64,000 nt of DNA from Aliiroseovarius halocynthiae (GTDB taxonomy: Bacteria > Pseudomonadota > Alphaproteobacteria > Rhodobacterales > Rhodobacteraceae). This document shows, one piece after another, positions 38,759 through 49,125 of this stretch (positions are counted from its first letter, which is position 1; every line of letters starts with the position of its first letter). The position numbers and the translations under genes were made by a program. Below the pieces are notes generated by a model that was given only the letters and a program-made list of their open reading frames with translations, did not search any database and had not been told where the DNA came from. The DNA lies in NCBI RefSeq assembly GCF_007004645.1, contig NZ_ML660019.1, forward strand, positions 888,437 to 952,436. The letters are read 5' to 3'.

Positions 38759-39616
38759 ATGATCGAGCAAACCTTCATATTCTGCGTTGGGGCGACAAAG
38801 GCTGGGACAAGTTGGCTGTATGACTACCTCAATTCGCATCGGGAGTGTCAGCTTCCGGCCGTGAAGGAGCTTCACTATTTTGATGCGCTTGAGCATGGAA
38901 GTGGTGCCTGGCACCGCAAGCAGCTTGAAGGACGGCTGGAAGGTGTGCGGTCACGATTGGACGCAGCCGACTCTCTAAATCTGCATCAGGAACGTCTGCT
39001 GACGGATGGCGAAGGTTGGCTGAATACGTTTGACGGGGAAACCCGTGATGATGATGCCTATTTGCAGTTTGTCCGAAACGCCGCAGGCGATGCCAAGCTG
39101 ATAGGTGATTTCACCCCGGCCTATGGCATGCTGAAAGAAGCGACCTTCCGTACTATGGCGGGGCTTACAGACAAGGTGCGCTTCGTCTTTTTGATGCGCG
39201 ATCCGGTGGAGCGCATCTGGTCGAATATCCGCATGATTGCGGGGCAGGACGGGCCTGCCACTTTGGAGGCCAAGATCAAGGGCGTTCTGGACGGGACGGC
39301 CACGAATATCCTTGAGAGGTCGAACTATCGCCGCACTCTGAACCGTCTCAGCGCGGCCATGCCGACCGAGATGTTTCACATTGAGTATTACGAACGGCTG
39401 TTCACACCTGATGCAATATCGCGTCTCTGTGCCTTTCTGGGGATTACCCATGAACCTGCACAGTTTGAGCGCGTGGTGCATCGCAGCGCGCCCGCAGATT
39501 TACCAGCGGCCCAGCGGGCCCAGCTGCAAACAGCACTTAAACCGCAATACAATTTCGTTGAGAAGTTCATGGGTGAGCTTCCAACGGAATGGACCCAGAA
39601 GATGGTGAGCGTATGA
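38759..39616 (+). CDS. Sulfotransferase family protein inserted between nuoC and nuoD
   Basis: 285-residue PAPS-dependent sulfotransferase-fold protein. The 5'-phosphosulfate loop is [15 protein letters not shown] (residues about 10-24). The 3'-phosphate site is [15 protein letters not shown] near residue 144. The C-terminal part has [10 protein letters not shown] and the [10 protein letters not shown] strand. The acceptor is unknown; relatives act on carbohydrates, lipids or proteins. It starts five bases after nuoC and overlaps the nuoD start as ATGA, so it is translated as part of the operon. Its codon use looks less biased than that of the flanking nuo genes, which fits later acquisition (inference). 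Confidence 0.87.
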
Positions 39617-40836
39617 TGGACGGATCCAAGACCTTCGATGACGCCCTAAACGGCGAACAGAAGATCCGAAACTTTAACATCAACTTCGGGCCTCAGCACC
39701 CGGCGGCACACGGCGTGCTGCGCATGGTGCTTGAGCTGGACGGCGAGATTGTCGAGCGGGCTGACCCGCATATCGGCCTTCTGCACCGCGGCACCGAAAA
39801 GTTGATGGAAAGCCGCACCTATCTGCAGAACCTGCCGTATTTCGACCGGCTGGACTATGTGGCGCCGATGAACCAGGAACACGCTTGGTGTCTGGTAATC
39901 GAAAAGCTGGCCGGTGTCGAAGTGCCGCGCCGGGCACAGCTGATCCGCGTTCTGTATTCGGAAATCGGTCGTATCCTAAACCACCTTTTGAACATCACCA
40001 CACAGGCGATGGACGTTGGTGCGCTGACTCCGCCTCTGTGGGGGTTCGTAGAGCGCGAAGCGCTGATGGGCTTTTATGAGCGCGCCTGTGGTGCCCGTCT
40101 GCACGCAGCCTATTTCCGTCCCGGCGGTGTGCATCAGGACCTGCCACCCGAGCTGATCGACGATATCGAGACTTGGGCGCATCATTTCCCGTCGCGGATC
40201 AAGGATCTGGACGAGCTTCTGTCTGAGAACCGCATCTTCAAGCAACGTAATGCTGACATTGGTGTGGTGAACGAACAGGACATTCTGGATTGGGGCTTCT
40301 CGGGCGTGATGGTCCGTGGATCCGGTCTGGCATGGGATTTGCGTCGTGCGCAGCCTTACGAATGCTATGACGAGTTCGACTTCCAGATCCCGGTTGGCAA
40401 AAACGGTGACTGCTATGATCGCTATCTGGTGCGGATGGAAGAGATGCGCCAGTCACTGTCGATCATCCTGCAAGCTGTTGAAAAACTGCGTGCCCCTGAA
40501 GGGCAGGGCGATGTGATGGCGCGGGGCAAGCTGACCCCACCTAAGCGCAGCGATATGAAAACGTCGATGGAAAGCTTGATCCACCATTTCAAGCTGTACA
40601 CCGAAGGCTTCAAGTTACCCGAAGGCGAGGTCTATGCCGCCGTTGAAGCGCCCAAGGGTGAGTTCGGCGTCTATTTGGTCTCGGACGGGTCCAACAAACC
40701 CTACCGCTCGAAAATTCGCGCACCCGGATTCTTGCATCTTCAGGCCATGGACTATGTGGCCGGGGGCCACCAACTGGCCGACGTCGCCGCCATCATCGGC
40801 ACAATGGACGTCGTGTTTGGGGAGATTGACCGCTAA
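39613..40836 (+). CDS. nuoD: NADH-quinone oxidoreductase subunit D
   Basis: 49-kDa-type subunit of 407 residues that forms the quinone pocket with NuoB and NuoH. Signatures include [14 protein letters not shown] with the quinone-site His, [26 protein letters not shown] and the C-terminal VFGEIDR. Start at 39613 overlapping the sulfotransferase stop; the adjacent ATG at 39616 is equally possible. Its stop overlaps nuoE as TAATG. Confidence 0.95.
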
Positions 40837-42005
40837 TGCTTCGCCGTTTGCATCATGAACAGCCCGAAAGCTTTGCTTTCACACCAGCCAATCTTGCATG
40901 GGCGGAAGGGCAGATTACGAAGTTCCCCGAGGGGCGTCAGGCCTCGGCGGTGATCCCGCTTTTGTGGCGTGCGCAGGAACAGGAAGGCTGGCTGACTAAG
41001 CCTGCGATTGAAGCTGTCGCTGACATGCTGGGTATGGCCTATATCCGCGTGCTGGAAGTCGCCTCGTTCTATTTCATGTTCCAGCTGCAACCGGTTGGAT
41101 CTGTTGCGCATATTCAGGTTTGTGGCACCACCGGCTGCATGATTTGCGGCGCAGAAGATCTGATCGCCATTTGCCGCGAGAAGATCGCCGATAAGCCGCA
41201 TGTTGTGTCCGATGACGGCAAGCTGAGTTGGGAAGAGGTCGAGTGCCTTGGATCCTGCACCAACGCGCCGATGGCTCAGATCGGTAAGGATTATTACGAA
41301 GACCTTACGGCTGAGACTTTTGGCAAGATCATTGACGAGCTGCGTGCTGGAAATGTGCCCACGCCCGGCCCGCAAAACGGTCGTTACGCGGCCGAACCTC
41401 TGTCGGGTCTGACCTCGTTGACCGAATATGACAGCGGTAAGACGCAGTATAACGCGTCGGTTCAGCTGGCAGCGGATATCGGGGATACCGTGAAGCGCAT
41501 CGACGGGACGGAAGTTCCGCTGTTGACGCCGTGGCTGGGCAAAGACGGCAAGGTTGCTGGTCGTGACGCTGCCGCGCCGACACCAAGAGCGCCTGCGACC
41601 GGCAAGACAGCCGCGCAGCAAGCCAAGCCGGCCGCCAAGAAAGCCGCACCTAAGAAAACCGCCGCAAAAGCGCCCGCTAAGGCGACGAAAGCCGATGCTG
41701 CCCCCGCAGCCACAGGCAAGGCGAAAAAACCGCGCACTATGAAGGCCCCCCGCAAAGCGGGTGCGGACGATCTGAAACAGCTGAAGGGCGTTGGTCCGAA
41801 GTTGGAAGGCGTCCTGAATGGCCTTGGCTTCTGGCATTTCGACCAGGTTGCCAAATGGGGTGCAGACGAGATTGCCTGGGTTGACGATCAACTGTCCTTC
41901 AAAGGACGGATTGAGCGCGACGGTTGGGTAGAGCAAGCCAAGACTTTGGCAGAAGGTGGCGAGACCGAGTTCTCGTCCAAGGTCAAGAAGGGCAAGATCT
42001 ACTAA
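40836..42005 (+). CDS. nuoE: NADH-quinone oxidoreductase subunit E with a C-terminal linker and helix-hairpin-helix-like domain
   Basis: Residues 1-175 are a normal 24-kDa NuoE, which holds the 2Fe-2S cluster N1a through Cys96, Cys101, Cys137 and Cys141 ([15 protein letters not shown]). The protein is 389 residues, more than twice the length of a minimal NuoE. Residues about 190-245 are a further segment. Residues about 250-296 are a Lys/Ala/Pro-rich linker ([15 protein letters not shown]), and residues 297-389 form a compact domain with the helix-hairpin-helix core [12 protein letters not shown]. That domain is repeated in the next gene. A nucleic-acid or protein docking role for the tail is inference. 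No frameshift joins the parts. Confidence 0.95.
41724..42002 (+). repeat. Duplicated 93-residue domain, copy 1 (C-terminus of NuoE)
   Basis: Codes for residues 297-389 of NuoE, from [11 protein letters not shown] to VKKGKIY. By my count 85 of 93 residues match copy 2 at 42681-42959, while many third codon positions differ. The duplication is therefore not recent and the protein sequence has been kept by selection. Confidence 0.9.
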
Positions 42006-42027
42006 GCACTGCGTAGGAAAACCAGGT

Positions 42028-42138
42028 ATGTTCATGAACGCGACAGATCATAAGTGTATGAGAAGGCAGCAAAAAGCCACCGCACCTGTGCGTTCTTTCT
42101 TTGTGTCCAACATCAACAACAGGGTTAAGGGACAATGA
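42028..42138 (+). CDS. Possible small ORF in the gap after nuoE (36 or 34 residues)
   Basis: ATG at 42028 or 42034 (the latter with AGG seven bases upstream). It runs in frame to a TGA that overlaps the next gene's ATG as ATGA (42135-42138). The product is basic (HKCMRRQQK near its middle). It may be a coupling ORF or chance; the frame is also open upstream of these starts. Confidence 0.25.
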   Translation: MFMNATDHKCMRRQQKATAPVRSFFVSNINNRVKGQ

Positions 42139-42962
42139 GTAAAGAGACTGGATTTCCAAGCTGTAAACAAACTTGCTGGATCGTCGGCGGAATAATTGGC
42201 ATCGCACTTTGGTTGACGATTTCGGGCATTATGGGCCTGATTATCGGTCTGATTGCTGCCGTTTTTCTGGCGATTGTTATGCAAAAACTGTTCTGCGGTG
42301 ACGTCGAAGAGACAATTAAGCCTGTCGCGTCGACGACGCCTGCACGGGCAGCCTCGGATGCGACATCGACCACGCAGGCAGCGCCCGCGATGGCGGTCGC
42401 AGACGTGGCTGCAGAGGCGTCAGCATCTGAAGCTTCTGTTCAGGCAGAAGCCGTTCAAAAAGATGCGGTTGTTGAAGCACCTCGTGTGACCGAGGAGCCG
42501 GCAGAAGACGCACCGGCACCAGCTGAGAAGCCCGCGCCTGCATCGAAGAAACCTGCGGCGAAAAAGCCAGCGGCGGCTGCGAAGAAGCCTGCGACGAAAA
42601 AGAAAGCTCCGGCGAAGAAAACCACGACCAAGGCGACGGCTGCGAAATCCACCGCATCGGTCGAGGTGACCGGGAAGCCCAAGAAACCACGTACAATGAA
42701 AGCGCCACGCAAAGCCGGGGCAGATGATTTGAAACAGTTGAAGGGTGTCGGCCCGAAGCTTGAGCAGACCCTAAACGGTCTTGGCTTTTGGCATTTCGAT
42801 CAGATCTCGAAGTGGAATGCGGATGAGATCGCCTGGGTGGACGACAACCTAAGCTTCAAAGGCCGGATCGAACGGGACGGCTGGGTAGAACAGGCCAAGA
42901 CCCTGGCGGAGGGCGGAGAGACTGCATTCTCGTCCAAAGTCAAAAAGGGCAAGGTCTATTAA
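42135..42962 (+). CDS. Membrane-anchored protein sharing the NuoE C-terminal domain
   Basis: 275 residues in three parts. Residues about 13-52 are strongly hydrophobic and form one or two helices (CWIVGGIIGIALWLTISG, then GLIIGLIAAVFLAIVM), placing the rest most likely in the cytoplasm. Residues about 60-180 are an acidic Ala/Val/Glu stretch that turns into a Lys/Ala/Pro repeat (KKPAAKKPAAAAKKPATKKK), reminiscent of histone-H1-like tails. Residues 183-275 are a near-identical copy of the NuoE tail domain with the LKGVGPKLE helix-hairpin-helix core. I know no established function. Its place inside the nuo operon suggests a role with complex I assembly or positioning (inference). Confidence 0.82.
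   Translation: MSKETGFPSCKQTCWIVGGIIGIALWLTISGIMGLIIGLIAAVFLAIVMQKLFCGDVEETIKPVASTTPARAASDATSTTQAAPAMAVADVAAEASASEASVQAEAVQKDAVVEAPRVTEEPAEDAPAPAEKPAPASKKPAAKKPAAAAKKPATKKKAPAKKTTTKATAAKSTASVEVTGKPKKPRTMKAPRKAGADDLKQLKGVGPKLEQTLNGLGFWHFDQISKWNADEIAWVDDNLSFKGRIERDGWVEQAKTLAEGGETAFSSKVKKGKVY
42681..42959 (+). repeat. Duplicated 93-residue domain, copy 2 (C-terminus of membrane-anchored protein)
   Basis: Pairs with copy 1 at 41724-42002. Differences are scattered single residues (for example GV to QT after GPKLE, and VAKWG to ISKWN). Both copies follow a Lys/Ala-rich linker. Confidence 0.9.
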
Positions 42963-42971
42963 GGAATGGAA

Positions 42972-43196
42972 ATGGCAACCGACCCACAGAACAACAAGAC
43001 ACGTCAGGGGCGTTTGGCGGCACTCGTCATCGCGGCGACCGGTGTGTTGTGGGTCGGGGGCACTTTTGCTGGCAATTCACTTGGGTGGTCCAACCGGACG
43101 ATGGCCCTGATGGATCTTCTGGCATTGGCCGGTTTCGTTTTCGGACTGGTTGTAACGTATCGGATCTGGCGTCAGCGCCAGACGGATGAAGGATAA
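42972..43196 (+). CDS. DUF5337 family small membrane protein
   Basis: 74 residues with two predicted transmembrane helices (LAALVIAATGVLWVGG and LMDLLALAGFVFGLVV) and a short charged C-terminus (YRIWRQRQTDEG). The family is known to me only from complex I operons of Rhodobacteraceae, so it may be an accessory subunit or assembly factor. Start at 42972 with AAGGA six bases upstream; the ATG at 42966 is too close to that site. nuoF follows six bases after the stop. Confidence 0.8.
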   Translation: MATDPQNNKTRQGRLAALVIAATGVLWVGGTFAGNSLGWSNRTMALMDLLALAGFVFGLVVTYRIWRQRQTDEG

Positions 43197-44528: not shown

Positions 44529-44648
44529 ATGAACGTGAAGTACAACATACTGAAAACCGGCGATTTATCGCCCGTTTTGGCGTGTTGTTATTGCATGACA
44601 ATGCCTGACATACCCATCTCCTTTGTAAACAAAGGAGTTTTGACATGA
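44529..44648 (+). CDS. Possible 39-residue leader ORF between nuoF and the DUF5333 gene
   Basis: ATG at 44529 with GAGG seven bases upstream (44518-44521). The frame is open for 39 codons and stops at TGA 44646-44648, overlapping the DUF5333 start as ATGA. It contains Cys-Cys-Tyr-Cys codons at 44583-44594. Both the terminator-like hairpin (44553-44578) and the ribosome-site hairpin (44618-44637) lie inside it, so translation of this ORF would open both. The coding status is unproven. Confidence 0.35.
   Translation: MNVKYNILKTGDLSPVLACCYCMTMPDIPISFVNKGVLT
44553..44578 (+). terminator. Terminator-like hairpin after nuoF
   Basis: AAAAC + GGCGA (44553-44563), loop TTTA, TCGCC + GTTTT (44568-44578), with one C-C mismatch between the two stem halves. 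The arm ends in TTTT, and the A-rich left arm makes it two-directional. It lies inside the operon, so partial termination or attenuation is plausible. Confidence 0.55.
44618..44637 (+). promoter_or_regulatory. Hairpin that pairs with the DUF5333 ribosome-binding site
   Basis: Perfect 8-bp arms CTCCTTTG (44618-44625) and CAAAGGAG (44630-44637) with loop TAAA. The right arm is the Shine-Dalgarno sequence AAAGGAG, seven bases before the ATG at 44645. When folded, the site is fully hidden. TTTT follows directly, so it could also act as a weak terminator. Confidence 0.65.
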
Positions 44649-45058
44649 TGAGTACACGAACTGTTCTTCTGGCCGCTGGCCTATCCGTAACTGCTGGGAT
44701 GGCGTCGGCCACAGATTATGATGCGCTGCGTAAAGATAGCCGCATGCATAACGAGCTGTTGGGCGCGTCAATTGCGTATTTGATTGACGAGAACTGTTCG
44801 TCGCTGACGCTGCGGAAATTCCGCCTGCTGAACAAGGCGTTTTCGCTGCGCAGCCATGCGGTTGGGTTGGGATATTCGACCCGCGAGGTCATGGATTATG
44901 TGGACAGTAAGGCCGAGCAGGATCGCTTCCGCGCGATTGCCGAACCGATGCTGGCCAAACGCGGTGCGAAGCCGGGAAATGAAGCAAGCTATTGCGCCAT
45001 CGGGCGCGAGAATATGGAAAAAGGCACCTTCTCGGGCACATTGCTGACCGAGGGATAG
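44645..45058 (+). CDS. DUF5333 family secreted protein in the nuo operon
   Basis: 137 residues with a Sec signal peptide (TRTVLLAAGLSVTAGMASA, cleavage before TDYDALRKD). The mature domain has two cysteines, IDENCSSLTLRK and ASYCAIGREN, which may form a disulfide, so it is probably periplasmic. I recall this family from Rhodobacteraceae complex I operons; its function is unknown. The Shine-Dalgarno AAAGGAG is excellent but is sequestered in a hairpin. The ATG at 44648 is an alternative start. nuoG follows after 59 bases. Confidence 0.8.
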   Translation: MMSTRTVLLAAGLSVTAGMASATDYDALRKDSRMHNELLGASIAYLIDENCSSLTLRKFRLLNKAFSLRSHAVGLGYSTREVMDYVDSKAEQDRFRAIAEPMLAKRGAKPGNEASYCAIGRENMEKGTFSGTLLTEG

Positions 45059-48717: not shown

Positions 48718-49125
48718 ATGAACGACTTTTCAAAAAAATACGCCGAGATGATGGAGCAGGGCACCTTGATGCTTCGCGCCTTCAATCCAGCGCTCGAGAA
48801 GTTCGTTCCTGAAGGTCTCGACAAGCTGATGCCCACCATGCCGAAAGACATGATGGACATGATGTTCGGCAATACGTTCAACAAGGACGGGCTGGACGCC
48901 AAAACCCGCATGTTGGTGGCCCTTGCTGGTCTGGTTGCGGCTGGCGCGCAAACTGGTCCGCAGATCAAAGTCACCGTGCGCCATGCTTTAGAAGCAGGCG
49001 CGTCCGAGAAAGAGATCGCGGAAGTGATCTATCAAATGTCCATGTTGGGCGGCCTTCCGGCGATGAACCGGGCGCTTGAAGAAGCGCAAGCCGTCTTTGA
49101 CGAAAATCAGGAGGGGGACGCATGA
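48718..49125 (+). CDS. Carboxymuconolactone decarboxylase/AhpD-like protein inside the nuo operon
   Basis: 135 residues, all-helical, matching the carboxymuconolactone decarboxylase fold ([18 protein letters not shown], then [24 protein letters not shown]). It contains no cysteine at all, so the CxxC of peroxidase-active AhpD proteins is missing and a redox role is unlikely. A Met-rich loop ([14 protein letters not shown]) lies near residue 40. The ATG follows nuoI by nine bases, and the stop overlaps nuoJ as ATGA, so it is translated with complex I. The function here is unknown. Confidence 0.83.

Follow-up and report, generated by a model that had tools for sequence, protein, structure and literature searches.

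Why should a subunit of respiratory complex I and the membrane protein encoded beside it end in the same domain? The question is raised by a stretch of 64,000 nucleotides of Aliiroseovarius halocynthiae DNA (Rhodobacteraceae; contig NZ_ML660019.1, positions 888,437 to 952,436), called the window here, in which nuoE (40836-42005, plus strand) encodes a NuoE of 389 residues whose C-terminal extension, the tail, recurs in the product of the next gene. This neighbour is an ortholog of protein-O, a protein of the photosynthetic core of Dinoroseobacter shibae (D. shibae below), and the tail is related by profile matches to the C-terminal domain of PhaH, a protein reported to bind DNA. The reading that we favour, tentatively and at a little short of an even chance, is that each tail flexibly tethers its protein to a partner in the cytoplasm, the same for both and most probably DNA.

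A domain shared by NuoE and its neighbour

The product of nuoE has three parts:

40836..41546, plus strand: NuoE core, residues 1-237, the [2Fe-2S] thioredoxin-like subunit of complex I (PF01257; alignment to 8qby_E)
41547..41732, plus strand: NuoE linker, Lys/Ala/Pro-rich, 62 residues, net charge +13
41733..42002, plus strand: NuoE tail, a 90-residue domain of helix-hairpin-helix (HhH) type (NCBIfam matches; AlphaFold2 model of the paralogous protein-O tail)

The thioredoxin-like [2Fe-2S] domain PF01257 covers residues 26-169 (E 2.3e-49), and residues 1-236 align (E 3.1e-113) with 8qby_E, the 239-residue NuoE chain, without a tail, of a solved complex I that we take to come from Paracoccus. 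The whole protein is an ordinary member of the tailed-NuoE family NF009040 (PRK12373), from which it does not differ (620.5 bits against a cut-off of 514, residues 1-386 of 389); the name of that model is silent on the extension. The neighbouring gene encodes a protein built on the same plan at its C-terminal side:

42135..42962, plus strand: protein-O ortholog, 275 residues (match to 8yy9_O; gene order as in D. shibae; hairpin profile)
42162..42296, plus strand: protein-O membrane hairpin, residues 10-54, with Cys10, Cys14 and Cys54 (profile and predicted model)
42303..42689, plus strand: protein-O linker, 129 residues, net charge +6, the first part acidic (net -9) and the second Lys-rich (net +15)
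42690..42959, plus strand: protein-O tail, 82 of 90 residues identical to the NuoE tail (pairwise comparison)

Over a longer span the tails share 85 of 93 residues, the count given in an earlier note on this DNA, whose description of a 389-residue NuoE with a Lys/Ala/Pro linker and a terminal domain is likewise borne out. The synonymous divergence beneath a conserved protein that it reported was also recovered, third codon positions being identical in 43 of 90 codons and the Nei-Gojobori proportion of synonymous differences (pS) reaching 0.81, which is saturated, against a nonsynonymous proportion (pN) of 0.074. The duplication and its conservation are seen directly, and the analysis supports a first copy attached to the NADH arm and a second attached to a membrane protein, both constrained at the protein level.

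The tail is common in the family. In a sample of 150 family genomes (one per genus, completeness at least 90), to which the family counts below refer, a 90-residue query found it in 137 at E <= 1e-6, so that the likeness is no chance one. By its tail, the closest named relative is Aliiroseovarius sp. S1123 (91%, L152), in which only NuoE bears it. The NuoE core was found in 147 genomes (missing in G028, G120 and G139); at these loci NuoE is tailed in 120 and was scored tail-less in 27, among them G093, cut by a contig end. Protein-O at these 147 loci is tailed in 93 and a hairpin without the tail in 13, of which two are weak matches (E 0.006 and 0.0024), while 41, again including the truncated G093, have neither form; four of the 93 tailed forms (G043, G076, G086 and G130, the last with its locus split over two contigs) have no match to the hairpin profile. 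Because 8qby_E is tail-less and 27 of 147 family NuoE loci were scored so, the tail is unnecessary for catalysis.

The tail and its homologs

The AlphaFold2 model of the protein-O tail is compact and helical (pLDDT 87.5, pTM 0.73). The top Foldseek matches to it include RadA recombinases and NusA AR2, which contain HhH domains, and none is significant (best E 0.14). Of 25 tails scanned, every one is recognised by the NCBIfam models for PhaH and for the ribosomal proteins L21 and S2, the window tail lying at the C-terminal ends of these models; in the PhaH model NF045508 it occupies positions 166-233 of 234 (E 1.1e-20). On these alignments, the tail of NuoE and protein-O is homologous to the C-terminal domain of PhaH, with PhaH and S2 compared as NCBIfam models only.

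The resemblance is limited to this HhH domain: the N-terminal part is NuoE or a membrane hairpin in the window but a binder of polyhydroxybutyrate (PHB) granules in PhaH, and the whole window proteins, which score 79.0 and 73.5 where the cut-off is 250, are not PhaH phasins. Since NF045508 exceeds its cut-off in 0 of 191 genomes of a class sample, the common part is the tail and not the phasin; a control on 14 named genomes gave matches in two (Caulobacter vibrioides and Methanocaldococcus jannaschii), one of them over the cut-off. According to a review, PhaH of Caulobacter crescentus binds PHB granules by its N-terminal end, while its C-terminal domain binds DNA non-specifically and places the granules on the nucleoid (PMC13052382). 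The tails present a canonical GxGPK hairpin and conserved basic residues: K23 of the GVGPK hairpin is kept in 107 of 120 NuoE and 79 of 92 protein-O tails, and R59 and R62 of the FKGRxxR hairpin are each kept in 119 of 120 and 92 of 92, respectively.

The tail also occurs on other proteins. L21 of the window genome ends in it (L003), which extends to this very genome the L21 fusion that the earlier note had mentioned for relatives; the tailed bL21 (NF008915) and uS2 (NF008966) models have the same tail, but on ribosomal proteins. In the class sample it was found in 17 of 191 genomes, three of them from the window's family, and in other families open reading frames read by eye show it at the end of NuoE (G200, G312, G313 and G317), of L21 and of a number of short membrane proteins. 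One tailed membrane protein adjoins a protein of OmpA/BON-like sequence (a label given by eye), and a metagenome-assembled genome of the Hyphomicrobiales has an ABC ATPase fusion, judged by eye to be of dipeptide type, that carries this tail and a Lys/Ala/Pro linker of the same kind (L231:3801-6225). Because it is found on L21, an ABC ATPase and short membrane proteins and in the S2 and PhaH models, the tail is a general module.

Two further kinds of tailed protein were observed. A short membrane-anchored one (MFREWGFLLTE...) lies near 5660-6270 of L165, L183, L187 and L189, loci at which no nuoE or nuoF was found. An extra tail-bearing open reading frame, with a weaker membrane segment or none, lies between nuoE and nuoF in G002, G010, G019, G022, G042, G048, G060, G073, G079 and G114.

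History of the two copies

Identity between the NuoE and protein-O tails of the same genome is 66.29%; shuffled pairs give 62.27 +/- 0.42, and 0 of 5000 shuffles reach the observed value (82 genomes); without the four most alike genomes the figures are 64.95 and 62.19 +/- 0.41. Between genomes, identity hardly differs with the kind of tail (NuoE-NuoE 62.7, NuoE-O 62.2, O-O 63.8), and the two copies are reciprocal best partners in 5 of the 82 genomes. The tails of G094 (97.7% amino-acid identity, fourfold sites equal at 38 of 38) and G132 (88.2%, with 74% of 42 fourfold sites equal) look like products of recent gene conversion.

Within the window's genus the NuoE and protein-O tails are distinct and stable kinds, identity being 86.2% within genomes, 93.0% between NuoE tails and 92.0% between protein-O tails (11 genomes; a twelfth, G340, was left out, its NuoE tail having been missed by the pattern). 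A recent duplication or conversion behind the 91% identity in the window genome was rejected, given the pS of 0.81 and the separate kinds formed by the genus tails.

Among 21 genus genomes, the locus carries both tails in 12, the NuoE tail only in eight and neither in one (56% complete). In the eight single-tail genomes the 3' flank of NuoE is of the kind that follows protein-O elsewhere. Compared with G340, the flank of G346 agrees with the protein-O flank at 97 of 100 nucleotides and with the NuoE flank at 27 of 100, and its tail agrees with that of NuoE at 265 of 300 and with that of protein-O at 236 of 300. Deletion of protein-O when one tail recombined with the other, close to the 3' ends of both, is the best reading of these loci; the case is clear for G346, while the other seven may instead retain an ancestral single-tail state. 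The data do not all agree with this reading: set against 11 two-tailed genomes, the single tails are closer to the protein-O type in amino acids in 8 of 8, in nucleotides in 8 of 8 and at fourfold sites in 3 of 8.

A proposed tether to DNA and its alternatives

In the mechanism that we propose, the tail is an alphaproteobacterial binding module of HhH type, mobile and attached through a flexible linker. The NuoE copy would hang off the cytoplasmic NADH arm of complex I, the protein-O copy off a membrane hairpin with a cytoplasmic C-terminus, and both would be retained for one common partner, most likely DNA, which their conserved GVGPK and FKGRxxR hairpins would contact non-specifically. Respiratory complexes and the protein-O membrane (in phototrophs, the RC-LH1 core of reaction centre and LH1 ring) would thereby be tethered to the nucleoid in the manner reported for PhaH and PHB granules. 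That the partner is DNA and that the tails serve as tethers is our inference. The wider claim that in most Rhodobacteraceae complex I, and in phototrophs RC-LH1 too, is leashed to the chromosome so that energy-converting membrane patches are held against the nucleoid is possible, but we hold it to be doubtful.

The earlier note's interpretation is partly supported overall; it did not recognise the neighbour as protein-O. Of the partners that it had considered, nucleic acid is the best candidate, through the homology to a PhaH domain that the review calls DNA-binding, but the typical tail is acidic. A partner common to both copies is plausible, same-genome tails being more alike than shuffled ones, but gene conversion alone could cause the likeness.

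Several observations weigh against a DNA tether. The net charge of the tail has a median of -1 in NuoE (n=119) and -3 in protein-O (n=91), and linker charge medians are 0 and -3, linkers being positive in 57 of 119 and 29 of 91; since these family medians are acidic or zero, the window tails (net +2 and +3) and their Lys-rich linkers are not typical. The L21 tail of the same genome has a net charge of -2; it passes HHH_5 (28.6 against 27), whereas the window tail falls below the cut-offs of the Pfam families HHH (14.1 against 24) and Cdd1 (17.2 against 25.5). The most strictly kept residues of the tail include W42, W49, W65, Q38 and Q68, which fit a protein interface equally well, and HhH folds serve protein-protein contacts too. 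The function is dispensable, given the 27 tail-less scores among 147 NuoE loci, and PhaH is known here through a review and an NCBIfam model only.

The main rival is a docking module, in which one tail binds the other, or both bind a single protein, and complex I is so linked to protein-O and, in phototrophs, through its hairpin to RC-LH1, as a supercomplex or assembly tether. The presence of one domain on two proteins encoded side by side favours it, as do the strictly kept Trp and Gln residues, the acidic net charge and the excess likeness of same-genome tails, although conversion could homogenise tails without any contact. The pair is, however, not obligatory, 13 genomes having a hairpin without a tail (two of them weak) and 10 a tailed protein-O beside a NuoE scored tail-less, and finding the tail on L21, on an ABC ATPase and within the PhaH model points to something of more general reach than complex I as the partner; we regard docking as unlikely, if the strongest competitor to the DNA tether. 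A tether to the ribosome or RNA, by which the tail would bring translation to the membrane at the site of complex I assembly, draws on the tail of L21, in this genome and others, and on that of the S2 model, but the sole member with a reported activity is reported to bind DNA, and we consider such a tether improbable. Least probable is that protein-O is a photosynthesis subunit lying by chance in the nuo operon with its tail a passenger, a view that the distribution described below contradicts as far as an exclusive role goes.

Protein-O with and without photosynthesis

In its 2025 description (PMC12079452), protein-O of the D. shibae RC-LH1 (8yy9) is a two-helix hairpin between the reaction centre and the LH1 ring, in which Cys10 and Cys59 form a disulfide at the cytoplasmic face; it has a cytoplasmic C-terminus and a flexible, NuoE-like C-terminal domain; its gene sits between nuoE and nuoF, its function is given as unknown, and an assembly role like that of protein-U is a speculation of the authors. 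The window protein resembles it in having a hairpin with Cys at both ends, a long linker and the same C-terminal domain, and in its gene lying between nuoE and nuoF. In a search of PDB sequences its tail gave matches to 8yy9 chain O at 2.4e-32 and to 9wqv chain a at 1.3e-27, while a profile of 60 hairpins, the window's first, matched 8yy9_O (5.4e-12), 9lts_A ('Protein LRC', 3.3e-11) and 9wqv_a (4.3e-4). The entry 9lts is titled as D. shibae RC-LH1, and 9wqv, for which no publication was found, also contains a reaction-centre L chain. The window hairpin alone gives a non-significant 0.3 bits against 8yy9_O, and its Foldseek search ranks the D. shibae chain 9lts_A first at a likewise non-significant E of 2.2. 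Where the earlier note saw a single transmembrane segment, the model, a weak one (pLDDT 70.4, pTM 0.38), predicts helices at 10-28 and 32-54, and the D. shibae structure has two helices. Cys10, Cys14 and Cys54 are apparent counterparts of the Cys10/Cys59 region. By sequence and locus, the gene at 42135-42962 is an ortholog of D. shibae protein-O.

Unlike 8yy9_O, the window protein has a Lys/Ala/Pro-rich linker without an RKGxWxY-type motif (by eye), and its genome has no reaction-centre match. Elsewhere, a second linker motif, approximately (V/L)xPSxxLxGxxELxxRKGxWxY, occurs in short protein-O forms of G005, G027, G033, G067 and others, and in D. shibae; the RKGxWxY end is found in 27 of 92 protein-O sequences and also terminates several tail-less forms. 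In the family genome G030, protein-O has the same N-terminus and length as 8yy9_O.

The reaction-centre family PF00124 was found in 56 of 150 family genomes and not in the window genome (99.99% complete). It was likewise absent from all 21 genus genomes, a set that contains the window genome and one that is only 56% complete. Because its genome is without reaction-centre genes, the window protein is not an RC-LH1 subunit and is filed as an ortholog only. Its presence in non-phototrophs is directly established: any protein-O, tailed or short, occurs in 44 of 55 genomes with PF00124 and 62 of 92 without (Fisher p 0.13). The position of the D. shibae hairpin and the homologs in the reaction-centre entries 8yy9, 9lts and 9wqv favour a photosynthesis subunit, as does a mild tendency of tailed copies towards phototrophs (42 of 56 against 51 of 91, p 0.023, uncorrected for relatedness). 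Against it, non-phototroph sequences carry the Cys pair more often (39 of 51, against 22 of 41 from phototrophs), which also argues that the disulfide is not a photosynthetic adaptation, and the hairpin looks constrained in a genus with 0 of 21 phototrophs. There, the hairpin cysteines are kept in 12 of 12 extracted sequences, and the ten pairs of lowest pS have a pN/pS of 0.10-0.28 (mean pS 0.59 and mean pN 0.20 over all 66 pairs).

A role in photosynthesis only was rejected on this spread and constraint. Protein-O is not specific to photosynthesis, and its task is probably broader, one possibility being that it tethers membrane machinery to the chromosome; complex I is the obvious candidate for a partner of its hairpin in non-phototrophs. 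As regards the sets compared, L192 was dropped from set A2 for a stop codon, L263 and L264 were not used, and hairpin set A3 is without L165, L169, L183, L187, L189 and L218 (removed by hand, four lying outside nuo and two having doubtful starts) and without loci with a stop or too short.

Other features of the nuo locus

Two rows complete the surroundings of protein-O:

42006..42134, plus strand: intergenic stretch from nuoE to protein-O, 129 nucleotides, with two short inverted repeats (by eye)
42966..43196, plus strand: DUF5337 small membrane protein, the gene after protein-O (PF17272, 6.8e-30)

The inverted repeats (GGCA...TGCC-like and CGCAC-CT-GTGCG) recur in most of 12 genus sequences by eye and perhaps serve RNA processing or regulation. 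At 132 of the 147 loci a member of the DUF5337 family sits between nuoE and nuoF. Further inserts in the operon, all on the plus strand, are a sulfotransferase-family gene in the nuoC-nuoD gap (38759-39616; PF13469, 4.6e-13), a DUF5333 gene between nuoF and nuoG (44645-45058; 1.9e-27) and a carboxymuconolactone decarboxylase-family gene between nuoI and nuoJ (48718-49125; 1.7e-16).

Significance

Protein-O, its location between nuoE and nuoF and its likeness to the NuoE tail are already published (PMC12079452); because that paper notes the location and the shared domain, the pair of NuoE and its neighbour is partly in print. New here are the occurrence of protein-O in non-phototrophs, the homology of the tail to PhaH and the signs of recombination between the tails. 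The open-access literature searched gave no report of the PhaH likeness of the tail or of protein-O in non-phototrophs, nor of a function of the NuoE tail or a PhaH-type tether on respiratory or photosynthetic complexes.

Since protein-O occurs in two thirds of those sampled genomes of the family that have no reaction centre, photosynthesis is not the sole reason for it, and the finding points to complex I or the nucleoid. The homology of the tail to a reported nucleoid tether gives a testable function to two proteins, as well as to the tails on L21 and others. If true, it would make the spatial coupling of respiration, photosynthesis and the chromosome in Alphaproteobacteria an experimental question with defined genes.

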